Shown here: piece by piece, positions 23,220-47,800 of the stretch
Layout of the letters: each line of letters begins with the position of its first letter
How positions within the stretch are numbered: the stretch's first letter is position 1
DNA from: Fodinibius sp. Rm-B-1B1-1
GTDB taxonomy: Bacteria; Bacteroidota; Rhodothermia; Balneolales; Balneolaceae
DNA length: 64,000 nt
Assembly (NCBI RefSeq): GCF_038594945.1
Contig: NZ_JBCFYD010000002.1
Span: forward strand, 1 to 64,000
Direction: 5' to 3'
Notes under the pieces: generated by a model
The model's database searches: none
The model's input: the letters and a program-made list of their open reading frames with translations, nothing else
What the model was told of the DNA's origin: nothing
Translations under genes and position numbers: made by a program

Positions 23220-24614
23220 ATGTATCGTCGAATTTTAAGTTTTCTAAAATATTTTGGTGCTTTTTTTCTGCTGCTGGTGATTGGAAGTTGCGTATCACAA
23301 GAGGAGATATCTGCACCTCCAGTTGAGGAACCAGCATCCTTTTCGCAAAGTGGGGAAAACGAAGTGCCAGACCGTTGGTGGACAGCGTTTGGTAATGATG
23401 AGCTGAATACACTGGTTGATACGGCTCTCGCATCAAATTTTGATATTCGAACGGCTTGGCAGCGGCTGCAAGCTGCCGAAGCGGTTGTTAGCCGTGAACG
23501 GGGCGGACTTTTTCCATCATTGGATGGTACTGCGGGAGCACAAACAACCCGAAACCAATCCGACTTTGGCAGCAGCAATGATTTTAGTGTTGGATTGAGT
23601 TCATCATATGAGATAGATTTGTGGGGACGTATTGGTTCACAGGTTGATGCTGAAGAATACCGGGCCCAGGCATCATTGGCAGATTACCAGACAGCAGCAC
23701 TGACATTGTCGGGGCAGGTTGTACAAACGTGGGCACGGTTGGCCGAGGCGCAACAGCAATTATCTCTGCTCGACAATCAAATAGCGACAAACCGAAAAGT
23801 ATTACGATTGCTGAAAAACAGGTTTGGCACTGGCCAGATTAGAAGCGTTGATATATTGCGTCAACAGCAATTACTTGAAGCAACCCAACAACAGAAAGCA
23901 GATGCCGAGGCAAATCTAAAAGTATTACAGCACGAACTTTCAGTATTAGTAGGGCGACCTCCTCAGGATACGCTTGACGTACAGCCCAACCAGCTACTGG
24001 ATTTGGCTCCATTACCCGAAACCGGTGTGCCTGTTGATCTTGTTCAGCGTCGTCCCGATGTACGAAGTGCCTTTAATTTAGTGAAAGCCGCTGACCGTGA
24101 TTTGGCTTCTGCAATCAGTAATCAGTACCCCCGTTTAACCCTGTCAGTCTCGTTAAACAGTTCCAGTAATACAGCTGGGGGGCTTTTTGAAGAGTGGGTC
24201 TCATCCTTTGCGGGGAATCTGCTGGCACCGATTTTTCGGGGTGGAGAACTCAGTGCTGAAGTGGATCGCCTCGAAGCAGTAAAGAAACAGAGATTATACG
24301 AATATGGTCAATCAGTGCTTACTGCTTTTCAAGAAGTAGAAGATGCGCTTGTGCGGGAGCAGAAACAACGAGAAAGTATTAATCGAATTGAGGAGCAGGT
24401 AAAACTGGCAGAGCAGGCATACAGTCAGTTGCAATTACAGTATCTGAATGGAACCAATAATTACCTGGACGTTCTTACCGCTCTTGATGAAGTGCAGCAG
24501 CTTCGAAGGGATTTATTGACTGCAAAGCTTACACTTATAGAATATCGAATAGGATTATACCGGGCATTAGCAGGATCATTAGAAATCGAACGCAAAACAG
24601 GTTCGGATCGTTAA
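23220..24614 (+). CDS. RND efflux outer-membrane lipoprotein (NodT/OprM family)
   Basis: A 464-residue TolC-type outer-membrane factor with a lipoprotein signal (lipobox VIGSC, Cys 24). The mature part starts with the family pattern VPDRWWTAFGNDELNTLVDT and has two repeated coiled-coil/strand halves, each an OEP repeat, including LVQRRPDVRSAFNLVKAADR in the middle. It forms the exit duct of the tripartite pump whose adaptor and pump genes follow at 48- and 30-base gaps. Confidence 0.94.
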   Translation: MYRRILSFLKYFGAFFLLLVIGSCVSQEEISAPPVEEPASFSQSGENEVPDRWWTAFGNDELNTLVDTALASNFDIRTAWQRLQAAEAVVSRERGGLFPSLDGTAGAQTTRNQSDFGSSNDFSVGLSSSYEIDLWGRIGSQVDAEEYRAQASLADYQTAALTLSGQVVQTWARLAEAQQQLSLLDNQIATNRKVLRLLKNRFGTGQIRSVDILRQQQLLEATQQQKADAEANLKVLQHELSVLVGRPPQDTLDVQPNQLLDLAPLPETGVPVDLVQRRPDVRSAFNLVKAADRDLASAISNQYPRLTLSVSLNSSSNTAGGLFEEWVSSFAGNLLAPIFRGGELSAEVDRLEAVKKQRLYEYGQSVLTAFQEVEDALVREQKQRESINRIEEQVKLAEQAYSQLQLQYLNGTNNYLDVLTALDEVQQLRRDLLTAKLTLIEYRIGLYRALAGSLEIERKTGSDR

Positions 24615-24661
24615 ATTTGAATATTCCTATATAGGATAGTAGATCTTAGAAAACCAAGAAC

Positions 24662-25861
24662 ATGGATTGGAAACAGACACTTCTTGTGAGTTTGGGTATT
24701 TTGGCAGGAGCCGTGACCTTGATAGCACTCATTTTCTATACAGAGCCTACAGCGCAACAGGCCGGGGCTACTCGGGCAACACCGATGCTTGTTGATGTAA
24801 CCGAAGTTCAGTGTGGAAACTATCAGCCTACGATTCAGGTAATGGGTACTGTACGGGCTTCGCAGGATATCAATTTAAGTCCCCGCGTTAGTGGGGAGGT
24901 TATTTCGTTGTCCGATTCTTTTGCTCCTGGTGGATATGTTGAAAAGGGGGAACCGCTGGTACAGATTGACTCATCAGATTATAAAAACATCCTTGAACAG
25001 CGAAAAAGCGAGCTTCGACAGGCACAGGCCGACTTGGATATTGAGATGGGGCAGCAGGATGTGGCCCGACAAGATTATCAGCTGTTTGCAGATACTCTGA
25101 CAGAAGAGAATAAGGCACTGGTTTTGCGCGAGCCCCAACTCGAATCGGCCCGTTCGAGTGTGGAATCGGCCCAAGCCGGTGTTGATCAGGCACAATTGGA
25201 TTTGGACCGAACAACAATCCGGGCACCCTTTAATGCCCAGATTTTGAGTCGCAATGTAAATGTAGGTTCACAGGTATCGGAGGGAGAGGATTTAGGTCGA
25301 CTGGTCGGGCTCGATACCTACTGGGTAGAAGCAACGGTACCGCTTTCGAAGCTCCGTTGGATGGATATTCCACAAAATAACAGTGAGACCGGATCGGAAG
25401 TAAAAGTAAGGAACCGAACCGCGTGGCCGGCCGACACTTATCGAAAGGGGCATTTGTTTAGGCTCATAGGTACGCTCGAAGATCAAACTCGCTTGGCCCG
25501 CGTATTAGTTTCGGTGCCCGATCCGCAGGCATATAAGGTTGAGGATCCCAATGTGCCGCGCTTGATGTTAGGATCCTTTGTAGAAGTCCATATCCAAGCC
25601 AAAGAGCTTAGCGATGTTATCCGCTTGAATCGTGATTATATTCGTGATGACGAAACGGTGTGGGTGATGGAAAATGACAGCTTGCGTATTCAGGATGTTG
25701 AGGTTCAGTTTCGTGATGCGCAGTACGCGTATATCCAAAATGGATTGTTAGGTGGTGATCAGGTTGTAACGACGAATCTTTCAACGGTTAGTGATGGCGC
25801 CCCATTGAGATTGGGGGATAAACCAAGTTCAGAAACTGAATCCTCTTCTGCATCAGAATGA
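24662..25861 (+). CDS. RND efflux periplasmic adaptor (HlyD/MFP family)
   Basis: A 399-residue membrane fusion protein. An N-terminal membrane anchor (TLLVSLGILAGAVTLIALIF) is followed by a split lipoyl/barrel-sandwich domain (LSPRVSGEVISLSDSFAPGG ... TTIRAPFNAQILSRNVNVGS), an alpha-helical hairpin between them (about residues 115-185), a beta-barrel domain and a membrane-proximal domain. The C-terminal 15 residues are Ser/Glu-rich. It links the inner-membrane pump to the outer-membrane duct. No local TetR or MarR repressor is adjacent. Confidence 0.94.
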   Translation: MDWKQTLLVSLGILAGAVTLIALIFYTEPTAQQAGATRATPMLVDVTEVQCGNYQPTIQVMGTVRASQDINLSPRVSGEVISLSDSFAPGGYVEKGEPLVQIDSSDYKNILEQRKSELRQAQADLDIEMGQQDVARQDYQLFADTLTEENKALVLREPQLESARSSVESAQAGVDQAQLDLDRTTIRAPFNAQILSRNVNVGSQVSEGEDLGRLVGLDTYWVEATVPLSKLRWMDIPQNNSETGSEVKVRNRTAWPADTYRKGHLFRLIGTLEDQTRLARVLVSVPDPQAYKVEDPNVPRLMLGSFVEVHIQAKELSDVIRLNRDYIRDDETVWVMENDSLRIQDVEVQFRDAQYAYIQNGLLGGDQVVTTNLSTVSDGAPLRLGDKPSSETESSSASE

Positions 25862-25890
25862 TTAATGGTATTTTCTAAACAGCAGTATAG

Positions 25891-28800
25891 ATGAGTAAGT
25901 CTAATTTAAATACTTCGTCATCAAATGATGGTACCAGCCGTGGATTGATCGCTTATATGGCCGAAAATTCTATTGCGGCGAACTTGTTAATGCTCATTCT
26001 TATCGGAGGTGGTATATGGACGGCCTTTAACATTCAAAAAGAAGTATTTCCGGAATACCAGCTGGATATTGTTGAAGTGAGCGTTGTTTACCCGGGAGCT
26101 GCACCGGAAGAAGTTGAGCAGGGAATATTACGTCCGGTGGAAGAAGCCATTCGCGGGGTTCAGGGAATCAAAGAAGTGACCTCAACGGCCGATGAGGGAT
26201 CGGGGAATGTATCCATAGAATTGGTGACTGGCGCCGAGCGGATGAAAGTATTTCAAGATATTGATCAGGCGGTGAACCGTATCCGTACCTTCCCTGATGA
26301 CATTGAAGAGCCTGAAGTTCAGTTACAGTCGAATCAGCGTGAGGTCATGACCATCGGTTTGTATGGAGATTCCGATATCTGGACACTTCGTAAACTGGCC
26401 GAGAATATGCGGGATCGGCTCTTAAGCAAAGAAAATATTACGCAGGTCGAAATTGGCAATGTGCCCGATTACATCACTCATGTAGAGATTCCACGTAATA
26501 CGCTGCGCGAATATAATTTGACGTTGGCTGATGTAGCCAATGTGATACGTCAGTCCAGTGAAGATATTCCAGCTGGAGCCGTAGAAACCAACTCAGGAGA
26601 AATCTTGCTTCGGATGCAAGAGCGAAAACAATGGGCCGAAGAATATGGCAACATTGAAGTAGTAACATCAGATATCGGAACCAATGTAACACTGGGTGAT
26701 ATTGCAGAAATTACCGATGGGTTTGAGGAGATTGGTTTCTATGGGGAATTCAATCAACAGCCAACGGTCGATCTTCAGATCTATCGTATCGGTAATCAGT
26801 CACCGCTCGAGATTGCTGAAACTGTTGAAAATGAACTGGAGATCGCCCAATCAGAATTTCCGCCCGGTGTGCAATATCGTATTGACAGTAATAGTGCCGA
26901 GGACTATCGCGAACGTCTCTCACTATTGTTGAAAAACGGAGGGCTGGCTATCCTGATTGTACTGTTTATTTTGGCACTATTCCTGGAATATCGTCTTGCT
27001 TTTTGGGTGATGATGGGGATGACAATATCATTTGTAGGTGGATTGTTATTCCTCCCATTGTTGGGATTGAGCATTAATATGATTTCCATGTTTGGATTCC
27101 TGGTGGTACTGGGAATTGTGGTGGATGATGCCATTGTGGTGGGAGAGAATGTCTATGAATATCGTCAACAGGGCATGAGCTTTTTGGATGCGGCCATCAA
27201 AGGAGCGCGGGAGATGGGGAAACCGGTGACTTTTGCAATTCTTACCAATGTTATTGCCTTTTTTCCACTGATGTTTATGCCGGGAACAACGGGTAAGTAC
27301 TGGTGGCCGCTCCCCGCTGTAGTTATTGTAGTGTTATTGGTATCACTGGTTGAAGCACTATTTATACTGCCCGCCCACCTTGCACACAGTTCTAAAAAAG
27401 AGAGTCGGTTTGCCCTTGGTCAAAAAATGCATAAATGGCAGCAATCATTTGCTGAAAAATTTAACCGCTTTGTCGATACCTATTATCGAGGCTTTTTAGA
27501 TTTATGTTTGAAATATCGGTATATCACGCTTAGCACCGCAGTTGCATTGTTGATTGTCGTGGGTGGATACGGGTATAGCGACCATATGGGAATGATCATG
27601 ATGCCTGAAGTAGCTGCTGATGAGATTGAATCGGGAGTATCATTGCCGGTGGGAACGACGACTATGCAGGCAGCAAAAGTGGCCAAAGAAATTACTAATT
27701 CGACACAGCGGATGTTTGAAGAACATAATTTATATGAAGTGGCCGAAGGGGTCAAGACCAATGTACGGGGACAAAATTTTATCGATGTCGAAATTGTGAT
27801 GAAGCCGCCCAACCAACGTGATATGTCGTCGCAGGAAGTTATTGAGTTATGGCGCGAGGAGATTGGTGATATCGAAGGGGTGGATCAGATTACGTTTGAG
27901 GCTGAACGTGGACCCGGAGGATATTTGCCCGATATCAGTGTAGACTTGAGTCACTCGGATATTTCGGTGCTGGAAAATGCAAGCCAAGCGTTTGTAGAAC
28001 GCGTTGAACGCTATGAGGCCTCCCGAGATGTAAATGACAACTACAATCGCGGCAAAGCACAATATGATTTTAAATTATTGCCCGAGGGAAGACGCTTAGG
28101 ACTTACATCAGATGATATAGGGCAACAACTGCGGAATGCGTTTTACGGTTCGCTTGCGATGCGTCAGTTGAGAGGTACGAACGAAATTGAAGTACGTGTC
28201 AAGCTCCCCCTTGAGCAGCGGCGCGATATCCATAGCTTAGAAGATTTTGTGATTCAGACGCCTTCCGGGGCCGAAGTGCCATTGATGGATGTCGCTGAAT
28301 TTGAGAAGGGTGAAGCTTTTACAACTATTAACCGTCGCAATGGACGTCGCGTGGTATCGGTAAGTATGGATGCCGAACCTGCTAATGCGGTATCACGGGT
28401 ATTGGAATCACTACAGACAGAAACACTTCCCGAGTTACGTGAAGATTTTCCTGGTATCACATGGACGTTTGAAGGGAGTCAGGCCGAAATGCGCGAATCT
28501 ACCCAAGCGCTGTGGGGTACGTTTGCTTTGGCTTTAATTGTGATTTATGCCTTGCTGGCGGTAGCCTTTGGAAGTTATATGCAGCCTATTATTGTGATGG
28601 GGGCTATCCCTTTTGGGATTGTTGGAGCCGTAATTGGACACATCGTGTTGGGATATGACCTCTCGTTAGTAAGTTTGATGGGGGTTATTGCCCTGTCGGG
28701 CGTTGTACTTAACGACTCTCTCATTATGATTGATCTGGCTAATCGAAAACGAAAAGAAGATGGGGTATCCGTTTATGATGCAATTCATGAAGCAGGTTTA

Positions 28801-29028
28801 CGGCGTTTTCGTCCCATTACGCTAACTACATTAACGACTTTTGGCGGACTGACCCCAATGATTTTAGAGACTTCACGTCAGGCTGCAAACTTAATACCCA
28901 TGGCGATATCACTTGGCTTTGGGATTGTATTCGCCACTTCTATTATTCTGGTAATTGTACCTTGTCTGTATTTAATCCTTGAGGATACAATTACTGGATT
29001 CAATTCATTTGCTTCTGCAGAGAGATAG
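25891..29028 (+). CDS. RND efflux pump, hydrophobe/amphiphile type (AcrB-like)
   Basis: A 1045-residue RND transporter with the internal duplication expected: two sets of one plus five membrane spans and two large periplasmic loops. Visible are [19 protein letters not shown] and [13 protein letters not shown] of the first porter domain, and [20 protein letters not shown], which carries the proton-relay Asp pair in TM4. In the second half, [20 protein letters not shown] is the equivalent TM10 region. Drug specificity cannot be read from sequence. It closes the operon; an imperfect hairpin follows about 30 bases after the stop. Confidence 0.95.
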
Positions 29029-29581: not shown

Positions 29582-30063
29582 CATTTTCTCACCTTTTCAT
29601 GGGATGCCGCTGGAAATTCTTTGATTGTCATGTGACGAATCATGTATGTAATTCATGATTAGTCATCTCGAAAGTTGACACCAGCCCCATTTTTTTTCTC
29701 TTCTTACATGTTAATAGGTATTTGGGGCATCCCTATAAAAAGCCCACGTTATGGAACGTGTTATATACTGAAAAAATGATCTGCTACCTTCACCTTTTTA
29801 TTTCTGTCAAAAGGTGAAATAGAGCCAATCTACGTATCATGATTTAGAGATGTTCAAATAACTTCTTCATAACAGTGCCTTAATACTGCCATAAAGATAA
29901 AGTGTAGGTCATCAACTATATTTAGCCACTTATAAATAAAGGGTTGTTATTGCATTTAGCCTCCCAGTTGGTCATTTCTCATGAAAAGAATGCAATGACG
30001 CTGTTAATTCGTCACTTCCTGTAACCAGTTTGAAAAATATTTTCGCATAATTAAGGGGTATTT
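29582..30063. other. Non-coding gap with three hairpins
   Basis: No credible reading frame. Three inverted repeats stand out: AATCATG/CATGATT with flanking TGAC/GTCA (29633-29665), CACGTT-ATGG-AACGTG (29745-29760), and TTCACCTTTT (29789-29798) with AAAAGGTGAA (29809-29818). None has a proper T-run. The right part presumably holds the promoter of the phosphoesterase cluster; no recognisable Pho box was found. Confidence 0.5.
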
Positions 30064-30969
30064 ATGAACCTATTAAAGTATATAGTATTAATTGCACTTG
30101 TAACTATTATCAGTTGTAATGAGTCTAAACAAGACAAAACACTTGAATTGATTGGGCATCGAGAGGCAACGGGATTAGCACCGGAGAATACTATTCCCGG
30201 ATTTAAGATAGCACTGGGATACGATGTGGATGCCATTGAGCTTGATGTGGTAATTATCGGTGACAAACAAGTACTTGTCTCTCATGAGCCGTGGTTTCGT
30301 CATGATATTTGTCTGACGCCAAAGGGAGATTCTATTTCTGTTGACTCTCAAAAAGAGCACTTGGTTTATGACATGGATTATGAGCAGATTGTCGAATATG
30401 ATTGTGGTTCTATACAAAGGGAAGGATATCCCGGGCAGGAGAATCAACCGCTGACAAAGCCACTATTGACAGAGGTTATCCGCGAAGTAGAAGACTATAT
30501 TAAAGAAAACGATCTTGAACGGGTTGGGTACAAGATTGAAATAAAAAGTAAACCAGGTTGGTATGAGGGTAATAATATACAGCCTGTCCCGGAGCAGGCT
30601 GCAGAAATGGTGCATAAAGTATTGGTTGAAGAAGGAGTTATTAATCGGGTTAATATTTTTGCGTTCAATCCCCGAGTGCTGAACAGATTTGAAGAAATAA
30701 ATTCTTCTATCCCAAGAGTTTTCCTGATTCCCGAGTCTAAAAGTAATTTTGATGCAAACTTAGCCGAACTAAATAGTTTGCCTGATGTATATGCGCCGAA
30801 CTATACCCTTGTCAATTCGACCCTCGTAGAGCAAGTACACGAAAAGGGGATGACACTCATTCCATGGACGGTAAATAGATACGAAGATATGGTTAAGCTT
30901 GTAGGTGTTGGCGTGGATGGCATTATTTCAGACTATCCGAACTATTTTGAGAAACTAAGAGCAGAGTAA
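30064..30969 (+). CDS. Glycerophosphodiester phosphodiesterase lipoprotein
   Basis: A 301-residue GDPD-family enzyme with a lipoprotein signal (IISC, Cys 18). The catalytic signature is IGHREATGLAPENT (H32, R33, E42), followed by DAIELDV and VSHEPW carrying the metal-binding acidic residues and second His. Toward the C-terminus MTLIPWTVN and DGIISDYPN match the barrel end. The usual GHRG is GHRE here. These enzymes split glycerophosphodiesters into sn-glycerol-3-phosphate and an alcohol, using a divalent metal. It is the first gene of a cluster with alkaline phosphatase, SusC, SusD and a phosphoesterase. Confidence 0.92.
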   Translation: MNLLKYIVLIALVTIISCNESKQDKTLELIGHREATGLAPENTIPGFKIALGYDVDAIELDVVIIGDKQVLVSHEPWFRHDICLTPKGDSISVDSQKEHLVYDMDYEQIVEYDCGSIQREGYPGQENQPLTKPLLTEVIREVEDYIKENDLERVGYKIEIKSKPGWYEGNNIQPVPEQAAEMVHKVLVEEGVINRVNIFAFNPRVLNRFEEINSSIPRVFLIPESKSNFDANLAELNSLPDVYAPNYTLVNSTLVEQVHEKGMTLIPWTVNRYEDMVKLVGVGVDGIISDYPNYFEKLRAE

Positions 30970-31026
30970 TTACTGAAGGTTTTGTAATTACACTTTCATC
31001 CTTTTTAAATCCCAAAAAACAACATT

Positions 31027-32481
31027 ATGTCTGAATCCAAGAATAAAAATATATCACGTCGCGATTTTTTAAAGGCTGGGGCGCTGTCCAGTTTGGCTTT
31101 GGGGCCATTATTGCTTGGGGGATGCGATTCTGATGGCGAACAGTCATTTAAAGGACGCGGTAAAGCGAAAAACGTAATTTTTATGGTTTCTGATGGAATG
31201 AGTGCCGGAACCTTTAATATGGCTGATCTTATCAAGAGACGGAAATATGGGAACGGTAGTCATTGGGTTGATCTATATAATTCTGATAGGAGATTTCATC
31301 GGGGGATAATGGATATGGCCTCCCTGAATTCACCCATTACGGGGTCCGCAGCGGCCGCTTCTTCGTGGGGATGTGGGCATCGCGTTAATAACCTATCTGT
31401 AAATATGGGGCCTAATGGCGAAGAGTATACCCCCATTAATCAGATTTTTAAAGATGCTGGTAAAAAGACAGGACTGGTAACTACTACGAGAATTACGCAC
31501 GCCACTCCTGCGGGGTTTTCTGTAAATATTGATCATCGTAATAAAGAAGATGAGATTGCATTAAGGTATCTGCAGCGCGAATATGATGTAATGTTAGGCG
31601 GGGGTGCTCGTCATTTTGAGGCCGCCAGTCGTGATGATGATAAAAATCTAATTTCAAAATTTGCCGACAAAAACTACCAGATAGTCCAAACCAGACAAGA
31701 GCTTACCCAGGCTTCGGCGAATAAACGGCTTTTGGGTCTTTTTTATGATAGTCATCTACCCTACAGTATTGATCGTCAGACCATAGACGAACACCAACAG
31801 AACATTCCAACTATTGCTGAGATGACCCAGACAGCTTTAAAACATCTCGAAAATCAAGATGGGTTCATATTGCAGGTTGAAGGTGGGCGGGTTGATCACG
31901 GAGCTCACGCTAATGATGCTTCAGGCATGCTTTATGATCAAGTTGCGTTTGATGATGCCATAAAAGTGGCACTCGATTTTGTTGATCAACGTGATGATAC
32001 GCTGCTTATAATTACTACAGATCATGGAAATGCCAATCCTGCCCTTAATGCCGCCGGTGAAGGTTATAATGATTCTGCTCCTTTTTTCGATCGGCTTCAG
32101 GAATTCCGTCATTCTAATACTTGGATACTTTCTGAACTCGACAGCCATAGTACTGTTTCAGAGATTCGGGAAAGAGTAGAGTATGCCACTCGGCTTGGCA
32201 TCGGTAAGGATGAAGCACAAGCGTTAAGAAAAGCTCTAAATGGTAATCTGGATACTATTTACGACATAAAAAGCAATCCTTCGAGCGTATTGGGATCAAT
32301 TTTAGCAAATTACACCAGCGTTAGTTTTACAAGTGGTGGTCATACCAGTGACTTTGTAGAACTTGCAGCTCTGGGTCCGGGCATTGAAAACTTAGATTAC
32401 TTTACACGTAATACCGAGCTTTTTGATCTAATGGTAAATGTGGCTGGATTGAATGAAAATATGGTTCTGGCCAGTCAATAG
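31027..32481 (+). CDS. Alkaline phosphatase, Tat-exported lipoprotein
   Basis: A 484-residue PhoA-superfamily enzyme. A Tat motif (SRRDFLKAG, residues 10-18) precedes a hydrophobic stretch ending in a lipobox (LGGC), so it is folded before export and probably lipid-anchored. Metal ligands and nucleophile: DGMSAG, the Ser in ITGSAAAASSWGCGH (where E. coli has DSAA), VEGGRVDHGAHAND, ITTDHGN and TSGGHTSD. It would release phosphate from monoesters, such as glycerol-3-phosphate produced by the upstream GDPD, 57 bases away. A hydrophobic zinc/magnesium phosphatase is the safe reading; substrate range is unknown. Confidence 0.93.
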   Translation: MSESKNKNISRRDFLKAGALSSLALGPLLLGGCDSDGEQSFKGRGKAKNVIFMVSDGMSAGTFNMADLIKRRKYGNGSHWVDLYNSDRRFHRGIMDMASLNSPITGSAAAASSWGCGHRVNNLSVNMGPNGEEYTPINQIFKDAGKKTGLVTTTRITHATPAGFSVNIDHRNKEDEIALRYLQREYDVMLGGGARHFEAASRDDDKNLISKFADKNYQIVQTRQELTQASANKRLLGLFYDSHLPYSIDRQTIDEHQQNIPTIAEMTQTALKHLENQDGFILQVEGGRVDHGAHANDASGMLYDQVAFDDAIKVALDFVDQRDDTLLIITTDHGNANPALNAAGEGYNDSAPFFDRLQEFRHSNTWILSELDSHSTVSEIRERVEYATRLGIGKDEAQALRKALNGNLDTIYDIKSNPSSVLGSILANYTSVSFTSGGHTSDFVELAALGPGIENLDYFTRNTELFDLMVNVAGLNENMVLASQ

Positions 32482-32715
32482 ACTCAGATCGAGCACGGGA
32501 TATCTGGGAAGGTTGGACCAAAGATTCCTATCTGTACAATGGTTTCCCCATCAAACCAAGATTAGCTGTATTGATAACGACACACAAGCTTGAGTAGGTA
32601 ATAGTTTCATAACAGTAAGTTTCAAGTATAGTCAAAGCTGAAAACTATTATCTACAACCAATAAAACGGAAGGCAAAAAGTCTTAGTCAAAATAAAAAAA
32701 GCTAATCTTTTAGGA

Positions 32716-35700
32716 ATGATGAAGCGGAATACAATGAATAAAATATGCGCAAGATTTAGAAAACCAGCTATAGGGTTAATTGTAATGTTAATTGGATTTA
32801 CCTCTCAGATATATGGACAAGAGGTTAGCGGGATAGTAACTGATGAAACGGATTCGCTACTTCCTGGAGTCAATATCATGGTAAAAGGAACAGGTGTTGG
32901 TACATCAAGTGATACAGAAGGGGTATACAGTTTAGCGGTTCCAAGTATGCAAGATACTCTGGTATTCTCATTTATTGGCTATAAGACCCAGGAAGTACCA
33001 ATTGATGGGAGGTCAGAAATCGATGTGCAAATGCAATTAGAAACCGTGACCGGAGAAGAAGTTGTGGTTGTTGGGTATGGCACCCAACGGAAGGAAAATA
33101 TTGTTGGAGCCGTTGGTGAAGCTGAGGTTAAAGATATTTCAACTCGTCCATCTGCAGACATAGCAAGTTCTCTGCAGGGTGCTGTACCTGGTTTAAATGT
33201 TAGATCATCATCCGGTGGTGATCCATCTGAGACTCCAGAGATTAATATTCGTGGCTTTAACTCGATTAACGGCGGAGATCCTCTTGTTTTGGTTGACGGA
33301 ATAAAGGAAGACCTTGCGAATGTTAATCCCAATGATATTGAAAGTGTAACTGTCTTAAAAGATGCACAGGCAGCAGCTATTTACGGGGCCCGGGGTTCCT
33401 TTGGGGTAGTATTGGTAACTACGAAGACAGGTAGAAAAGGGGAGTTTGAAGTTGAATATTCCAATAATGTAGGTTTTACAACAAATACTGCTCGTACCGA
33501 TTTTGTGACTGATCCCTACACATATGCTCAATGGGCAGATGGGGCCATTGGTTCTTATCACAGTGGTTGTTATGTCTGCTATGAGGGAGAGGATTGGGAG
33601 ATTGCCAGACAAGTAGGAAACGGTGAGAGAGAACCTTTCTATGAGGAACAGCCCGATGGAACCTACAAATTCTATGAAAATAATGATTATTACGACATCC
33701 TGTTTAAGGACAAGCGCTCTCATGTTATGCATAATATTTCCGTCTCTGGTGGTTCCGACAAATTGCAGGGTGTTATTTCGGGGAGGATATATGAAAGGGA
33801 GAAAATTCAGAATATTCAGGATGCAGAGATGAAGCGATATAATCTTAAGCTTAACTTAGTTGCTACTCCCTATGATTGGTTGGAACTATCTGCTGTTAGT
33901 AAGTTCAGCAGTAGGTTTGATGAGCAGTATGCAGGGACCAAAAACGGTTGGGGTGGAGCATTCGGAGTGAGTAAATGGCGTGACCTTTTCCCCAATTATC
34001 CGGCTTTTGTTGATGGAGAGGGGGTAAGTGTTGGGCGGACCAGAAATGGTTATGTGGGACGTTTGGGAGCCTTAAAAGAAGGGGCGGCTCATCGTCAATG
34101 GCAGTACGAAAACCAGACGAATACGTTGAAAGCTATAGTAAATCCGATTGAAGAGTTAGAGCTTAATATGGACTATAGTTATAACATTGAAAGAACAGAT
34201 CGAACATTTTCGTACACCCCATTTTCCTATCTGTCAGGTAATGAACTTGAGTTAGTGGAAGATGCTGGTCTTAATCGTCATAATGAATATCGTTGGAAGG
34301 ATTATTATAAAGCGTTGAATATTTATGGAACGTATACCGAAGATGTAGCAGACAAGCATAATGTTAAGTTGATGCTTGGGTTTAATCAGGAGGTATTTGA
34401 TCGCGATAGAGTAGGAGCCAGAATTGAGGAGTTACTTACAAAAAATAAGGCTAATATCTCATTTGGAACCGAAATGTTGGATATGTCAGGTTCTACGTTA
34501 GAATGGGCTCTTCAAGGCTATTTTGGGCGTTTTAATTATAATTATGACGATAAATATTTATTGGAAGTTAATGCCCGTTATGATGGATCATCTCGTTTTC
34601 CTAAGGATAATCGATGGGGCTTCTTTCCATCAGTGGGAGTAGGTTGGCAAGTAGATAATGAAGCCTTTTGGACTTCTTCTTTAGAAGAGGTGGTTTCATC
34701 AATGAAGTTGAGAGCTTCATATGGGAAGCTGGGAAATCAAAATGTGGGTGTAAATACCTTTAGACAGCTTATAGGGATGGGCAAAAAATCATGGTTAGTT
34801 AATGGGCAAGAAGTTAATTATGCCAGTGCTCCAGAACCCCTTCCGGCAAATATTGGCTGGGAAAACATCACGTCAACAAACATTGGTGTTGATATAGGAT
34901 TTTTTGAAGACAAATTAACAACCTCCCTGGATTTGTATGAACGTAATACGAGTGATATGTATTTGCCCGGTCAGCCACTGCCCGCTGTATTTGGCGCTTC
35001 AGAGCCTCGTAGAAACTATGCATCTATGCGAAATAGAGGTTTTGAATTAACCGTTGGTTATAATGATCAATTTGATGTAATGGGGGACGCTCTTTCTTTC
35101 AATATCCAAGCCAATGTTTCAAATAATAAGGGGGTAATCACTAAATTTGATAACCCCAATGGCTTGTTAAGTACATTCTTTGAAGGGCAAGAGCTTGGTG
35201 AGATTTGGGGATATCGTATTGATGGTCAATTCCAGTCCGATGAAGAAGCAGCAGCATTTCAAAATAAATATGGCACAGAAAATTTGGTTGAGGTTTACCG
35301 TGGAATTCTTGACTACGGCTCAAATTCAGATTGGAATTACCTGAGAGGAGGAGATCTAAAATATGTAGATGTGGATGGAGACGGTGAAATTAATAATGGG
35401 AATAATACTTTGGAAGATCCCGGAGATTTGGAGCGAATTGGAAACGCCATGCCACAATTTCCCTTTGGGTTTAACATCAGTGCGGGCTGGAAAAATATTG
35501 ATCTCTCTGTTATTGGGCAGGGAGTTGCAAAACAACACTGGTACCCATCAGGGCCATTGTACTGGGCTACATTCCACAGACCATATGTCTCTTTTATCAG
35601 AAAAGATATTTTAGACAAAGTCTGGGATCCCGAACATCCTAATGATCCGGATAGAATTTATCCTCAAAGGCAAAGAGCGTATAACGCGCTAAGTTCAGGT

Positions 35701-36015
35701 CGGATGTCAGCGAATGTTAATGATCATTATTTAACCAACATCGGGTATCTGAGGATAAAGAATCTAACTGTTGGTTATACCCTTCCATCAACACTTACAG
35801 AAAAAGTAGATCTTAAAAAGGTAAGAATCTTCTTTAGTGGTGAAAATCTATTTACCTGGAGATTTGGGGGATTAACTGAATACCTGGATCCGGAAGAAGT
35901 AGGGGCTCATGTAAGTTATTCAAATCCAAATGGTGTTAGTGCAAAGCCTGCCAGAGATACCCAACTATATCCTATGGGTAAGACGTATTCGGCAGGAGTC
36001 GAAATTAGTCTCTAA
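32716..36015 (+). CDS. SusC/RagA-family TonB-linked outer-membrane protein
   Basis: A 1099-residue TonB-dependent porter. A signal peptide (cleavage near QIYGQ-EVSG) is followed by a carboxypeptidase-regulatory-like domain (VSGIVTDETDSLLPGVNIMV), the SusC signature EEVVVVGYGTQRKENIVGAV and a plug domain (EINIRGFNSINGGDPLVLVD, AIYGARGSFGVVLVTTKTG). A beta-barrel of about 850 residues ends in a phenylalanine-free ISL. Paired with the SusD gene 71 bases downstream, it forms a pedal-bin importer for an oligomeric ligand. No ECF sigma/anti-sigma pair or hybrid sensor is adjacent. Confidence 0.95.
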   Translation: MMKRNTMNKICARFRKPAIGLIVMLIGFTSQIYGQEVSGIVTDETDSLLPGVNIMVKGTGVGTSSDTEGVYSLAVPSMQDTLVFSFIGYKTQEVPIDGRSEIDVQMQLETVTGEEVVVVGYGTQRKENIVGAVGEAEVKDISTRPSADIASSLQGAVPGLNVRSSSGGDPSETPEINIRGFNSINGGDPLVLVDGIKEDLANVNPNDIESVTVLKDAQAAAIYGARGSFGVVLVTTKTGRKGEFEVEYSNNVGFTTNTARTDFVTDPYTYAQWADGAIGSYHSGCYVCYEGEDWEIARQVGNGEREPFYEEQPDGTYKFYENNDYYDILFKDKRSHVMHNISVSGGSDKLQGVISGRIYEREKIQNIQDAEMKRYNLKLNLVATPYDWLELSAVSKFSSRFDEQYAGTKNGWGGAFGVSKWRDLFPNYPAFVDGEGVSVGRTRNGYVGRLGALKEGAAHRQWQYENQTNTLKAIVNPIEELELNMDYSYNIERTDRTFSYTPFSYLSGNELELVEDAGLNRHNEYRWKDYYKALNIYGTYTEDVADKHNVKLMLGFNQEVFDRDRVGARIEELLTKNKANISFGTEMLDMSGSTLEWALQGYFGRFNYNYDDKYLLEVNARYDGSSRFPKDNRWGFFPSVGVGWQVDNEAFWTSSLEEVVSSMKLRASYGKLGNQNVGVNTFRQLIGMGKKSWLVNGQEVNYASAPEPLPANIGWENITSTNIGVDIGFFEDKLTTSLDLYERNTSDMYLPGQPLPAVFGASEPRRNYASMRNRGFELTVGYNDQFDVMGDALSFNIQANVSNNKGVITKFDNPNGLLSTFFEGQELGEIWGYRIDGQFQSDEEAAAFQNKYGTENLVEVYRGILDYGSNSDWNYLRGGDLKYVDVDGDGEINNGNNTLEDPGDLERIGNAMPQFPFGFNISAGWKNIDLSVIGQGVAKQHWYPSGPLYWATFHRPYVSFIRKDILDKVWDPEHPNDPDRIYPQRQRAYNALSSGRMSANVNDHYLTNIGYLRIKNLTVGYTLPSTLTEKVDLKKVRIFFSGENLFTWRFGGLTEYLDPEEVGAHVSYSNPNGVSAKPARDTQLYPMGKTYSAGVEISL

Positions 36016-36086
36016 TACATACTCATCAGTTTCGGAATAGATACACCGACGAACGTTATAAATAATTTTAAAAAATAGATATAACT

Positions 36087-37826
36087 ATGAATAGGCTCAT
36101 ACAAATATTAACAATAGTCATGTTGTTTTTAGTAACAACAAGTTGCCAAGACATACTTAACCAGCCCCCTGATGATGCTATAACATCAGAAGAGTTTTTC
36201 AACACCAGTAATGATTTAAGGGTTTACACAAATGATTTATATGATGTATTGCCCAGGAAATCGGTCTATATGGACGACGCCAGTTCCGATAATATTTTGG
36301 GAGTAAGTGCCTCGGCCAGAGTTGAAGGATCGCGTACTGTACCAACAAATAGAGGTAGCGGAGGTTGGTCTTGGGAAAACCTCCGAAAGATAAACTATTT
36401 CCTCGAAAATTATGATAGGGTAGACAATGCGGATGCAAAAGCCAAATATTCTGGGATAGCCAGATTTTTTCGAGCTTATTTTTATTTCGAGAAAGTGAAA
36501 CGGTTTGGAGATGTACCCTGGTATAGCGAGGTGATAAATGCTGATGATGAAAAGTTGTTGAACAAATCACGGGATCCAAGGGCATTGGTAATGGATTCTG
36601 TTCTTGCTGATATAAATTATGCTGTTGAGAACATTCCAGCTGAAAAACAACTAAATCAGATTACAAAATATACGGCCCTCATTTTAAAAGCTCGTATTAG
36701 TTTGTTTGAAGGGACGTTTAGAAAATATCATGATTTAGGTGATCATGAAAGATTTTTAGAAGAGGCCGCTTCAGCCGCTAAAGAATTAATAGATTCCGGG
36801 GCTTATACCCTGTATACCAATGGAGGTGCAGACCAGGCATATCTGGATCTGTTTGCAAGAAATAGCCAAGATATGACAGAGACCATTTTGGCTGTGGATT
36901 ACGAGTTTGGAAAGAGAACACATGATTTGGCTTACAGGATGACAGCACCAACCCAGGGTAGATGGGGGCTGGCAAAAGATCTTGTTAATAGTTACCTCAT
37001 GGCTGATGGAACCCCATTTACTGATCAAAATGGATATGAAACGATGGGTTTTTATGAGGAGATGCAGAATCGAGATCCACGGTTGACCCAAACCACAGCA
37101 GGACCTGATTATGAAACATACGGGTCAAATGAACGCGAACCTGTAAATTTAGATATAACGAGAACAGGATACCGGGTAATTAAAGCGTTGCCTCCTAAAG
37201 GACCACAATGGGGTTCGGGTGGATCTTATAACGACGTTATCCTTTTCCGTTATGCCGAAGCATTACTGATATATGCCGAAGCCAAAGCAGAGCTGGGAAC
37301 ACTCACCCAGGGAGATCTGGATATGTCTATTAATAAATTACGAGATCGCGTTGGTATGCCACACTTAAATATGGCAGATGCCAATGCTAATCCCGATCCT
37401 TATCAAGAAGCTCTGTATAAAAATGTTGAGCAGGGAGCAAATAAAGGAGTCATTCTGGAGATCCGCCGTGAACGAAGAGTTGAGATGGTGAATGAAGGCC
37501 TCCGGTGGGACGATTTGATGCGATGGAAAGAAGGAAACATCGTTGAGGATCCAATAAGAGGTATATACTTCTCAGGCCTGGGAGCTCATGATTTTAACAA
37601 TGATGGTAATGCTGATGTATATGTGCATGATGGAGACGCTTCCGGCGCACCTGAGGAGGTAACGACGACAATAAATATCAACGAACGTCCTCTGACAAAT
37701 GGTACAGCTGGAAACTTACATTTGTTTGATGGAGGGTCATTTGAGGAACCGAAAGATTACTATTACCCCATACCAATCGAAGATTTAGAATTGAACGATA
37801 ATTTAGAGCAGAACCAAGGTTGGTAA
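36087..37826 (+). CDS. SusD/RagB-family surface lipoprotein
   Basis: A 579-residue SusD-like protein with lipobox VTTSC (Cys 20) and mature start QDILNQPPDDAITSEEFF, typical of the family. Tetratricopeptide-like helices in the N-terminal half include ARFFRAYFYFEKVKRFGDVP. The C-terminal part has RYAEALLIYAEAKAELG and EIRRERRVEMVNEGLRWDDL, the RagB signature. It would cap the SusC barrel and bind the ligand at the cell surface. The cluster context suggests a phosphorylated ligand. A strong terminator follows. Confidence 0.95.
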   Translation: MNRLIQILTIVMLFLVTTSCQDILNQPPDDAITSEEFFNTSNDLRVYTNDLYDVLPRKSVYMDDASSDNILGVSASARVEGSRTVPTNRGSGGWSWENLRKINYFLENYDRVDNADAKAKYSGIARFFRAYFYFEKVKRFGDVPWYSEVINADDEKLLNKSRDPRALVMDSVLADINYAVENIPAEKQLNQITKYTALILKARISLFEGTFRKYHDLGDHERFLEEAASAAKELIDSGAYTLYTNGGADQAYLDLFARNSQDMTETILAVDYEFGKRTHDLAYRMTAPTQGRWGLAKDLVNSYLMADGTPFTDQNGYETMGFYEEMQNRDPRLTQTTAGPDYETYGSNEREPVNLDITRTGYRVIKALPPKGPQWGSGGSYNDVILFRYAEALLIYAEAKAELGTLTQGDLDMSINKLRDRVGMPHLNMADANANPDPYQEALYKNVEQGANKGVILEIRRERRVEMVNEGLRWDDLMRWKEGNIVEDPIRGIYFSGLGAHDFNNDGNADVYVHDGDASGAPEEVTTTININERPLTNGTAGNLHLFDGGSFEEPKDYYYPIPIEDLELNDNLEQNQGW

Positions 37827-37839
37827 AAAACGATTGAAT

Positions 37840-37886
37840 CCCATGCCATAATGTTTTTATAAACTATGGCATGGGCTCTTTTTTCA
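37840..37886 (+). terminator. Intrinsic terminator after the SusD gene
   Basis: CCCATGCCATA (37840-37850) pairs perfectly with TATGGCATGGG (37865-37875), 11 pairs, followed by CTCTTTTTTC. It separates the SusCD pair from the phosphoesterase gene downstream, which needs readthrough or its own promoter. Confidence 0.9.
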
Positions 37887-37924
37887 TACTTATTAACTAT
37901 TAACTCAGAAAAAGATCACTTTAA

Positions 37925-39526
37925 ATGGGAAAAATGAATAAGCAATTGTTAGTTGTAGCAATTACAATGTTGTTTTTTGGAGCCGGTTCAGCTTTGGCTC
38001 AAGACATGGCTACTGGAGTAGTTTTTCATGATAAAAACCAGAATGGTCAGCTTGATTCTTCAGAAAAAAGGCTTGCCGATGTCGCTGTATCAAATGGGAA
38101 GGATGTTGTATTAACTGACAAGCAGGGACGTTATGAACTTCCTGTAGATGATGATACTATTATCTTTGTTATAAAACCAGGTAGTTATAAGCTCCCGGTT
38201 GATAACAGAGAACGCCCACAATTCTATTACATTCATAAACCCAAGGGGTCCCCGGATTTGGAGTACAGTGGCGTATCTCCAACCGGACCACTTCCCGATT
38301 CCCTAAATTTTGGGCTAATTAAAGGCGAGCAGACCGATAATTTTGAGATGCTTGTCTTTGGAGATCCCCAACCCTATAACATGCAGGAGTTAGATTATTT
38401 CAACAGGGATATTATTAATGAGCTCACAGATGTTGAGGGCTATGAGTTTGGTATTACGCTCGGCGATATTGTTGGTAATGACCTGGATCTTTTTGAACCT
38501 TATTCCAAGTCGGTTGCCCGCATTGGCACGCCTTGGTTTAATGTATATGGCAATCATGATATGAATTTTGATGTGGAAAGTGACTCCCTTGCGGATGAAA
38601 CTTTTGAAGCAACTTTTGGCCCGCCAACGTATGCCTTTAATAAAGGTAAAGTGCATTTCATTGTTCTTGATGATGTGATATACCCTCGAAAAGATGGTGA
38701 ATCCGGTTATATAGGTGGACTTACTGACAAGCAGCTTACGTTTATCAAAAACGATCTTAAGCATGTGCCTAATGATCACTTGGTTGTACTGGCTTCGCAT
38801 ATTCCATTAGTCGTTCCCGAGTGGAGAGATGGTGATCCGTATTTTAGGATGGATGACCGGCAGAAACTTTTTGAATTGCTGTCGGATTATTCCCATACCC
38901 TGTCTCTATCGGCTCATACCCATGTGCAACGTCTTACATTTCTGACTGAAAATGACGGTTGGAAAGGGGAAAATCCTCACCTGCATTACAATGTAGGAAC
39001 TACTGGCGGTGACTGGTGGTCTGGTGAACCCGGAGAAGATGGCATACCGCCGACAATAATGAGAGACGGTACTCCCAACGGCTACGCCAGCATTAATTTT
39101 GAAGGCAACGACTATACACTTAATTATAAAGTTGCTGGTGCTGATGAAGAGAAAACGATGAATATATGGGGACCCGAAGTAGTTCCACAACGCGAGTGGT
39201 TTAATGCGGATCTATATGTGAACTATTTTTTAGGCAGTGACTCTACGAAAGTTGAATATCGGGTCAAGGGAAAAGAAGAATGGCAGAAGATGGACAAGGT
39301 TGCACTTGGCGATCCCTATATTACCTCATTGCGTGATAAATGGGACCGTTCCGAAGGACTTATTGATGGCAAACGCCCTAATAATGCTGTTGCTTCAAGT
39401 CACCTGTGGAAAACACGTGTCCCTAAAAACCTTCCCGAGGGCGAACATACTATAACTATCCGCGTGACTGACATTTTTGGACGACAATTCTTTGATGAAT
39501 ATAGTTATCATGTAGAAGATAGATAA
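37925..39526 (+). CDS. Secreted calcineurin-like metallophosphoesterase
   Basis: A 533-residue exported protein (signal peptide ends ALA-Q at 25/26). An N-terminal SdrD/MetallophosN-like beta domain (about residues 28-120, starts GVVFHDKNQNGQLDSSEKRL) precedes a calcineurin-fold phosphoesterase (about 135-390) with metal-binding motifs FGDPQ, GDIVGND, YGNHDMNFD, ASHIPLV and SAHTHV. A C-terminal beta domain (about 400-533) ends EHTITIRVTDIFGRQFFDEY. Proteins of this architecture hydrolyse phosphomono- or diesters. With GDPD, alkaline phosphatase and SusCD it completes a phosphoester utilisation cluster. Initiation could also be at Met 4. Confidence 0.92.
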   Translation: MGKMNKQLLVVAITMLFFGAGSALAQDMATGVVFHDKNQNGQLDSSEKRLADVAVSNGKDVVLTDKQGRYELPVDDDTIIFVIKPGSYKLPVDNRERPQFYYIHKPKGSPDLEYSGVSPTGPLPDSLNFGLIKGEQTDNFEMLVFGDPQPYNMQELDYFNRDIINELTDVEGYEFGITLGDIVGNDLDLFEPYSKSVARIGTPWFNVYGNHDMNFDVESDSLADETFEATFGPPTYAFNKGKVHFIVLDDVIYPRKDGESGYIGGLTDKQLTFIKNDLKHVPNDHLVVLASHIPLVVPEWRDGDPYFRMDDRQKLFELLSDYSHTLSLSAHTHVQRLTFLTENDGWKGENPHLHYNVGTTGGDWWSGEPGEDGIPPTIMRDGTPNGYASINFEGNDYTLNYKVAGADEEKTMNIWGPEVVPQREWFNADLYVNYFLGSDSTKVEYRVKGKEEWQKMDKVALGDPYITSLRDKWDRSEGLIDGKRPNNAVASSHLWKTRVPKNLPEGEHTITIRVTDIFGRQFFDEYSYHVEDR

Positions 39527-44857: not shown

Positions 44858-47800
44858 ATGTTACGCAGCAAGAAAGTCATCTTTGGTATTACTGTTTTTA
44901 TCATCTTAATAATAGCTGCTGTAGGAACGTGGTATGGTGGGGGCTGGGAGTATTCGGCTATCTATATTGCGGAAAGTTCTACCAAGCTTGATCCTGTGGA
45001 GAAGAAAAGGGCACGGACTGATTACTTTTTTAATCTGCTTCGTGATCCTGCAACCAATAGCATCCCCGAAAATATACGGTCACGAGAATTGAATCATGCG
45101 CAGCAGTTGCGCGGCGGTAGGGGTTTGCGAAAGTCAGGCTCGGCAAGTATGCAGCAGGTGGGGGATATCAGCTGGCATTTAGCTGGTCCTGTGGATTTGG
45201 GCGGACGTACCCGGGCGCTGGCGTTTGATCGGCGCAATGCGGATATCGTTTTGGCTGGTGGAGTCTCCGGGGGAATGTGGAAGAGTATCGACGGTGGTAA
45301 TACCTGGCAGTTAAAAACCGATCCCAACCAGGATATGAGCGTAACCAGCGTGGCACAAGATCCTACCGAGCCGGATACCTGGTATTATGCGACGGGCGAA
45401 CTTCGAGGAAATTCGGCAGGAGATCGTGGGGGCAGGGCCTCCTATTTTGGTACCGGTATCTATAAATCGACCGATAACGGGGAAAGCTGGTCTCGGCTTT
45501 CATCAACGGAGGATACGGATATTGCCTGGAATAGTGAGTTTGATTTTATATCGCGGATTATAGTAAACCCGGTGAACGGCGATGTTTATTTCGCTGCCAA
45601 TGGTGGGGCAATTTATCGATCAACAAATGGGGGCGGTTCTTTTTCAAATGTGTTGGGTAATTTAGGTGGTCACCGTTATGCCGATGTAATTGTGAACAAA
45701 AACGGAACGTTACTGGCCGCTCTTTCTGAAAGGGGGGCGGGGGCAATACAGACCGATAATCCTGGTATTTATCGTTCTACGGACGATGGTCAAAGTTGGA
45801 TCGATGTGACGCCTTCTGATTTTCCCGCCACGCACGATCGTACGTACCTTGCATTTGCACCGTCGGCTCCCGATACGGCCTACGCCTTTACCTATGAAGG
45901 ATCGGGTTCGGGATCGAATGAAAATATCAGCTTTTTTATGATGGACTTTGCAAACGATGCAAGTGAGGATCGATCGGGTAACCTGCCGGATTTTGGAAAC
46001 CCGGTAGGATTTGTGAATACTCAGTTCAACTATAATATGGTGATGGCGGTAAAGCCCGACGACCCCGATTTGGTGGTGATAGGCACAACCAACTTGTTTC
46101 GGTCACGTGATGGGTTTGCAACCACTCCCGCCGGGGGTTACGATAATTCCGATATCAATCAAAAACAAGAATTTTGGGTTGGCGGTTACGACCCTGCCAA
46201 TAATGTAAGCCAGTATCCCAATCAGCATCCCGATCAACATGTGCTGGTTTTTCAGCCCAATGATCCCAATACTTTGTGGGCGGGTCATGATGGCGGATTA
46301 AGTGCTACGACTGATATAACCGCTGCTCCGGTAAGTTGGGAGGATAAGGATGAGGGATATGTTACGGGACAGTTTTATACGGTAGAGATTCCCGACGAGT
46401 CGGGAGATGATCGGTATTTGGGTGGCACCCAGGATAATGGGACGCCCTTTTTCCGCTTTGATGAGTCTAATTCACAGGCGACCACCATAGAAGATATATC
46501 GAGCGGCGATGGAAGTTATGCGCATTGGGGCACTGACTACGCCTATGTATCTTCTCAAATGGGAAATGTTTTGCGACTGACAATTGAATCGGATGGCAGC
46601 ATTACTTCTCCCTACGAGGCTCCTACAGGAACGTGGAGTTTTGTACAGCCATCAGGGGCCACAAATCAGCTCTTTGTACATCCCTATGCCGTTGATCCCA
46701 ATGATGATACTATCATGTATTATCCTGGCGGCACTACGATGTGGCGAAATACTGAAATGGATGAAATATCGAATTATAATCAAGGGAGTACGACGACTGG
46801 ATGGGAAAGCTTTGAAGGGACATCTTCAACAGGATATACCATTTCTACGCTTGAGGTAACGAGCATGAGTCCTTCAGATCGCCTGTATTATGGGGCGTCT
46901 TCCTCTACCGGAACACCTGAAATCTTTAGGTTAAATAATGCTTCGACCTCTGACACGCCTACCGAGATATCTATTGGAGGTGCGTCAGCCGGAGCCTATG
47001 TACACGATATTGCGGTCAATCCACTTGATGGTGATGAGGTAATTGCAGTGATGTCCAATTATAGTATCACCGGATTATATCATTCGCTGGATGCGGGTAA
47101 TAGCTGGACGGCTATTGAGGGCAACTTAGAGGGGGATTCTCAAGATCCGGGACCTTCGTTACGAGATGCGGAGATTCTGCCAACGGAGGAAGGTAATATA
47201 TATTTAGTGGGTACGAGCACTGGTATCTATACTACGATGACACTCGATGGAAATTCGACCAGCTGGCAGCGAACATCTGATGATGGTTCTCCTGAAAGTA
47301 TAGGATATTCGGTGGTGGAATACCTGGACGTGCGTCCTTCTGATGGAACTATTGCCGTTGGTAGCCATGGACGAGGAATATTTGTAGGACGGGCGGAAGT
47401 AGGGGATGTGGTTGTTGAACAACTACCTGTTATTGAGGATACCCTTGAGGTTGTTGATGATTGGCAATTGGTGGGATCTCCGATGACCTCAGATGCAGGT
47501 GCTGAACCCGGTTCGGACTTGCAGCTGTATGAATATTCTGGAACATACAAGTCGGTCGCCAACATATCTTCCCATAAGGGATACTGGACGAAAAGTAGCT
47601 CTGGTTCTGAGATTTCCTATAGTGGTGAAGCGGATACCGCAGCAACTATTGCCCTTGAGAAAGGATGGAATCTGATTGGCGGGGTTGCTGATACAGTTGG
47701 AATTTCGGCCATCAGCGATCCTAATAGTATTTTAAGTTCGGCTGATATATTTGAATACAGCGAAGGAAGCTATCAGTCGGCATCCGATGTAAAATCTTTT

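Follow-up and report, generated by a model that had tools for sequence, protein, structure and literature searches.

SusCD pairs occur in very large numbers, and most are interpreted as importers of glycans. Here, we describe a SusCD locus flanked by phosphoesterase genes in the halophilic environmental bacterium Fodinibius sp. Rm-B-1B1-1 (RefSeq assembly GCF_038594945.1), located in a window of 64,000 nucleotides (the whole stretch of DNA analyzed; contig NZ_JBCFYD010000002.1, positions 1 to 64,000), together with a clade of related SusCDs that recurs beside glycerophosphodiester phosphodiesterase (GDPD) genes within the genus and in another phylum. Five genes lie in the order GDPD-ALP-SusC-SusD-MPE, as follows.

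30064..30969, + strand: GDPD, lipoprotein, 301 amino acids (PF03009, E 7e-28)
31027..32481, + strand: PhoA-type alkaline phosphatase (ALP), twin-arginine translocation (Tat) lipoprotein, 484 amino acids (PF00245, E 1e-70)
32716..36015, + strand: SusC/RagA TonB-dependent transporter, 1099 amino acids (TIGR04056, E 4e-238)
36087..37826, + strand: SusD-like surface lipoprotein, presumed ligand-binding lid, 579 amino acids (PF07980, E 4e-47)
37925..39526, + strand: secreted calcineurin-like metallophosphoesterase (MPE), MetallophosN/MetallophosC, 533 amino acids (PF16371/PF16370)

Coordinates and profile matches confirmed the original prediction of a one-strand SusCD locus with phosphoesterases and without glycoside hydrolase, lyase, or sulfatase; Pfam and NCBIfam profile scans found none of these three between the five genes, so the locus lacks the enzymes of a glycan polysaccharide utilization locus (PUL). 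The spacers are 57, 234, 71, and 98 bp in order; the short gaps also predicted are found at three junctions, the exception being the 234 bp between ALP and SusC.

The GDPD scored 98.8 bits against PF03009 (cut-off, 23.6), had PDB entry 3ch0 as its best match, and carries the catalytic/metal motifs GHRE, ELD, SHE, and EIK. ALP, for which no second PF00245 protein was found in the genome, scored 239 bits (cut-off, 24.4) and has the motifs TGSAAA, EGGRVDHGAHAND, TDHG, and GGHT; the Asp preceding the nucleophile in Escherichia coli is replaced here (residues compared by eye). SusC scored 793 bits against TIGR04056 (cut-off, 368) and is followed by the SusD lipoprotein (162 bits against PF07980; cut-off, 23), the arrangement of an importer. 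MPE has the catalytic motifs GDPQ, GDIVG, GNHD, SHIP, and SAHTH; a sequence search of the PDB gave no match for it, and an AlphaFold model (four input sequences) was not used because its predicted local distance difference test score (pLDDT) was 38. Judged by eye, the N-termini fit a signal peptidase II lipoprotein for GDPD (IISC), a Tat lipoprotein for ALP (SRRDFL...LGGC), a lipoprotein for SusD, and signal peptidase I secretion for MPE, in agreement with the lipoprotein, Tat, and secreted labels first given to the enzymes.

Orthologous SusCDs were found in 5 of 12 genus genomes (the window's included; SusD identity, 85 to 92%). The locus reads GDPD-SusC-SusD-MPE in Aliifodinibius salipaludis (G002), SusC-SusD-MPE with a GDPD pseudogene upstream of SusC in genome G001, GlpK-GlpF-extracytoplasmic function (ECF) sigma factor-FecR-SusC-SusD-PhoD-GDPD in Fodinibius salsisoli (G007), and GlpK-GlpD-GlpF-SusC-SusD-truncated sulfatase-GDPD in F. 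roseus (G011); a GntR regulator adjoins GlpK in Fodinibius. As a control, every SusD and GDPD of these five genomes was located. A GDPD lies at most 8 kb from 4/5 orthologous SusDs, compared with 0/136 other SusDs (Fisher p 3e-7; the loci share descent, so p overstates their independence), and on these counts, chance adjacency was rejected for GDPD. Identity to the window GDPD is 72% in A. salipaludis and about 25% in F. salsisoli and F. roseus, which suggests at least two divergent lineages of SusCD-linked GDPDs and repeated recruitment.

The other two enzymes vary. An ALP orthologue in A. salipaludis (82.7% identical) stands alone, away from SusCD, so ALP is probably a recent joiner of the locus, not a conserved member. 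MPE is SusCD linked in five loci of the clade described below, and paralogues that stand alone occur at other places in the genus. By gene content, we take the conserved core to be SusC, SusD, and GDPD, with MPE frequent; ALP, and possibly MPE, are looser, lineage-specific partners. The proposal that all five genes form one conserved operon was rejected, because ALP and MPE differ among loci. Parts of the ALP-SusC spacer align to the A. salipaludis spacer between GDPD and SusC, which fits an insertion of ALP between these two genes; at 32482-32600, within this spacer, an open frame without a start reads DSDRARDIWEGWTKDSYLYNGFPIKPRLAVLITTHKLE.

Two further observations concern the same five genomes (G000, G001, G002, G007, and G011), which are closely related. 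Their PF07980 matches are very uneven, from 11 to 48, and G001 holds a second glp-GDPD cluster (L186:6007-14798), in which GlpK-GlpD-GlpF-GDPD adjoins another SusC-like transporter and a lipoprotein that is putatively SusD-like.

Scanning the genomes of other species gave 80 SusD relatives. In a SusD tree, the window SusD falls in a 12-row clade (SH-aLRT, 100) that represents 11 distinct loci (L112 and L033 are one locus; L081 is that of A. salipaludis) and spans Balneolota (Fodinibius, Gracilimonas) and Flavobacteriaceae (Salegentibacter, Gramella), a mixture that suggests transfer of SusCD between phyla. GDPD adjoins 9/11 distinct loci (window, G002, G007, G011, L083-L086, and L093), and a tenth (G001) has the pseudogene; the loci are kin by descent and transfer, and these counts are not independent. 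Conservation of GDPD next to SusCD in related genomes, which the original prediction had named as support for itself, was thus observed.

Genes of glycerol metabolism are a second recurrent feature. In 6/11 clade loci (G007, G011, and L083-L086), GlpK is found about 8 kb or less from SusCD, usually with GlpF and GlpD. In Salegentibacter, a DeoR-family regulator, SusC-SusD-(sulfatase)-GDPD, and a GDSL hydrolase-PafA phosphatase-GlpF-GlpK-GlpD group occur together, the PafA being an equivalog match to NCBIfam NF042991 (805 bits). Outside the clade, GlpD-GlpK-GlpF-SusC-SusD-GDPD share a strand in Parabacteroides sp. 52, a more distant relative, and in Parapedobacter pyrenivorans (L142:4610-16149), SusC-SusD stands with an RbtT-type (ribitol/arabinitol) polyol transporter, a GDPD, and two FGGY-type kinases, possibly a ribitol-phosphate version of the system. 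The window locus has no glp genes and so is not of the glycerol-linked form; in its genome, GlpD is present and a full GlpK was not found (at about 98% completeness, absence is likely but uncertain).

This linkage raises the alternative of a primarily carbon locus for glycerol or polyol scavenging, in which the phosphoesterases merely free the polyol for GlpF, GlpK, and GlpD. The GlpK-linked loci, the DeoR-family and GntR regulators, and the polyol transporter and kinases of Parapedobacter fit it; the apparent lack of GlpK in the window's genome and the gain of ALP at the window locus, which points to phosphate there, do not, and as a general account, we consider it quite improbable. The claim of a phosphorus rather than a carbon locus fails for the clade at large, given its linked GlpK, GlpF, and GlpD, and stays plausible for the window species. 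There, phosphate use is probably the better reading, because GlpK was not found; carbon use would be at least as likely in the GlpK-linked clade members and in Parabacteroides sp. 52, because of the gene orders above.

Among the 80 wider relatives, the operon-like neighborhoods of 73 encode one or more phosphoesterases or phosphodiester glycosidases (EEP, 31 loci; NAGPA, 22; calcineurin-like, 20; GDPD, 13; MPE, 6; PF01663, 3; PhoD, 1), and glycoside hydrolases are few in their clusters. Neighbors were labeled by scanning cluster representatives against Pfam and extending each label to the other cluster members by sequence similarity. At 20 other SusCD loci of the genus, drawn at random, the downstream genes included GH76, GH88, GH32, GH43, amylase, ThuA, and sulfatases. 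A seed search of these 20 control loci gave no match for GDPD, EEP, calcineurin, or NAGPA (one PF01663 cross-match), and these four families are outside the 25 best-represented Pfam families listed for them. Phosphoesterase content differs between relatives and controls (Fisher p 9e-14), a contrast that is indicative, since the sets differ in taxonomy. Homologous loci that consistently carry glycosidases, the outcome held to speak against a joint function, were not seen.

Two groups stand out among the wider relatives. In Pontibacter and Sphingobacterium (L088, L090, L091, L097, L102-L104, L107, L108, L111, L113, and L115), the order is ECF sigma/FecR-SusCD-TIM-barrel protein (PF01261)-BACON-domain protein-hemopexin/DUF218-NAGPA-GDSL; this conserved NAGPA module downstream of SusD appears to be a system of its own, acting on sugar-1-phosphodiesters. 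In Dyadobacter, Larkinella, and Spirosoma (many of L121-L160), the genes after ECF-FecR-SusCD encode a calcineurin-like phosphoesterase and a protein of the EEP family, and these loci are another phosphoesterase-rich SusCD group.

A SusCD-phosphoesterase locus is an already known kind. The PusCD of Flavobacterium phosphate utilization systems (PUS; Lidbury et al. 2020) are encoded with phosphodiesterases and PhoA and are induced solely by depletion of inorganic phosphate (PMC8115612); PusD was reported to be polyphyletic (PMC8115612), and the PusCD idea has been taken up since (PMC8812569). The window locus has the content of a PUS, with SusCD beside phosphomono- and diesterases and no carbohydrate-active enzymes (CAZymes). 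By gene content, it resembles the PUS of Flavobacterium johnsoniae and relatives in having phosphodiesterases or a PhoA-type phosphatase in place of CAZymes, and import of organic phosphorus followed by hydrolysis is proposed for both. The published systems differ in their partners: PUSI combines an ECF sigma factor with enzymes of pf00149 (calcineurin-like) and pf16670, and PUSII has PhoA1 and FecR (PMC8115612), whereas the window clade has GDPD as its constant partner and glycerol-metabolism genes in relatives. Glycan PULs share the SusC/RagA and SusD families (TIGR04056, PF07980), the lipoprotein lid, and the order susC-susD then secreted enzyme; they differ in that their enzymes are CAZymes, whereas those of the window locus are phosphoesterases, without glycoside hydrolase, polysaccharide lyase, or sulfatase.

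Three noncoding elements bear on how the genes may be expressed.

32599..32650, no strand assigned: imperfect inverted repeat, 52 bp, upstream of SusC (TAATAGTTT N34 AAACTATTA)
37839..37886, + strand: GC-rich hairpin and T-run between SusD and MPE (z = -4.9)
29866..29900, + strand: three 11-bp direct-repeat-like units upstream of GDPD, a weak Pho-box candidate (CATAACAGTGC CTTAATACTGC CATAAAGATAA)

The inverted repeat, whose exact pattern occurs once in the genome, is conserved in A. salipaludis and in G001 with its dead GDPD and is a candidate operator/promoter element of the SusCD unit. The hairpin stem folds in the window, G001, and A. salipaludis and is terminator- or processing-like. Given these two elements, GDPD-ALP, SusC-SusD, and MPE may be separately tuned, and the single joint unit originally envisaged is doubtful. 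In the genus, pstS is preceded by a conserved direct repeat with an 11-bp period, a putative Pho box, and a position weight matrix (PWM; 22 bp) was built from seven pstS promoters. A genome-wide search for the Pho-box pattern gave as many matches as a reversed control, and scans for the Bacteroidota -33/-7 consensus and sigma-70 promoters gave chance-level results only.

The inconstancy of ALP and MPE, the solitary MPE paralogues, the element retained by SusC, and the hairpin after SusD would fit an ordinary SusCD for glycan import, placed by chance next to phosphoesterase genes that are expressed independently. Such an arrangement is nonetheless highly improbable given the GDPD counts in the genus, the recurrence in another phylum, the phosphoesterases of the wider relatives, the rarity of glycoside hydrolases in the clusters, and the lack of a conserved glycosidase across most clade loci. 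Also unlikely, if by no means negligible, is a general PUS, controlled by PhoB and not specific for glycerol, that takes up a mixture of organic phosphorus compounds (nucleic-acid fragments, lipid headgroups). The same anatomy is published, with induction solely on phosphate depletion (PMC8115612), the wider SusD relatives have EEP, calcineurin-like, and NAGPA enzymes as neighbors in place of GDPD, and GlpK was not found in the window's genome; however, the window's own clade links GDPD and glycerol genes, not nucleases, and the clear putative Pho box of the genus pst operon is only weakly resembled upstream of GDPD.

From the gene content, clade membership, linkage to GDPD and Glp genes, and enrichment over other SusCDs, we infer that the SusCD of this clade is an importer specialized on glycerophosphodiester-type ligands, acting with the linked phosphoesterases, a reading we hold to be rather likely. 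The ligand taken up is probably a phosphodiester and, more precisely, a glycerophosphodiester. GDPD-family enzymes also act on phospholipid headgroups, and the ligands proposed are phospholipid headgroups after deacylation or short oligomers of glycerol-phosphate, for instance teichoic acid fragments. SusD would capture the ligand, and SusC would import it with TonB energy; GDPD would release glycerol-3-phosphate and an alcohol, or peel glycerol-3-phosphate off an oligomer, and phosphate would then be freed by a phosphatase (here ALP and/or MPE), the site of action of each enzyme being predicted, as are induction and the joint working of the adjacent genes. The window species would harvest mainly phosphate, and its GlpF-GlpK-GlpD-linked relatives would harvest glycerol carbon too. 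Comparison thus backs the ligand class of the original prediction and not its phosphorus-only output for the clade at large, its ALP membership, or its single unit.

Several observations weigh against an importer of this specificity. In the neighborhood examined, the SusCD-MPE of Gracilimonas mengyeensis has no accompanying GDPD. A PF00884 sulfatase occurs in some loci of the clade, so groups besides phosphate may be present on the ligand. The kinship of the clade loci is a further point. The best PWM sites upstream of GDPD are weak (p = 0.18 in the window and p = 0.02 in A. salipaludis), the region upstream of SusC gives no support (p = 0.36), and no significant motif was common to the GDPD and SusC upstream regions.

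The GlpQ and PhoD teichoicases of Bacillus subtilis, exo- and endo-acting, degrade glycerol-phosphate wall teichoic acid (PMC7086022), and a GDPD/GlpQ and PhoD pair likewise adjoins the orthologous SusCD in F. salsisoli, a lead toward teichoic-acid-like polymers. The B. subtilis enzymes turn over the polymer of their own Gram-positive wall (PMC7086022), whereas here the enzymes are linked to an importer of the outer membrane in a Gram-negative-type phylum, and the window locus is without PhoD. Tentatively, and on balance improbably, there may be dedicated SusCD uptake of polyol-phosphate polymers (glycerol-phosphate, and ribitol-type in Parapedobacter), by which Balneolota and Bacteroidota would "selfishly" import charged phosphodiester oligomers, not glycans, derived from the teichoic acids of neighboring Gram-positive cells or from (possibly sulfated) glycerol-phosphate headgroups that belong to other microbes in salty habitats. 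The main text of PMC8115612 does not mention glycerol, teichoic acid, or Balneolota, and nothing on SusCD with glycerophosphodiesters or teichoic acid was found beyond PusCD in a literature search that covered few subscription papers, so that absence is unproven.

Elsewhere in the window, positions 23220-29028, upstream of the locus, hold a likely tripartite efflux set (judged by eye) of an outer-membrane factor, a periplasmic adaptor, and a resistance-nodulation-division (RND) pump. Positions 44858-48523 encode a 1221-amino-acid protein that combines Sortilin/Vps10-like repeats with a type IX secretion sorting domain at its C terminus.

What is added here to the known PusCD is the constant GDPD partner, the linkage to glycerol metabolism, the spread to Balneolota, and the within-genome control. 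A clade set in a clear glycerophosphodiester context would help to recognize, from sequence, SusCDs for phosphorus-rich ligands and would carry the PusCD idea past Flavobacterium into another phylum, with a prediction open to direct test, namely that microbes of saline habitats cross-feed on phospholipid headgroups or teichoic acids.

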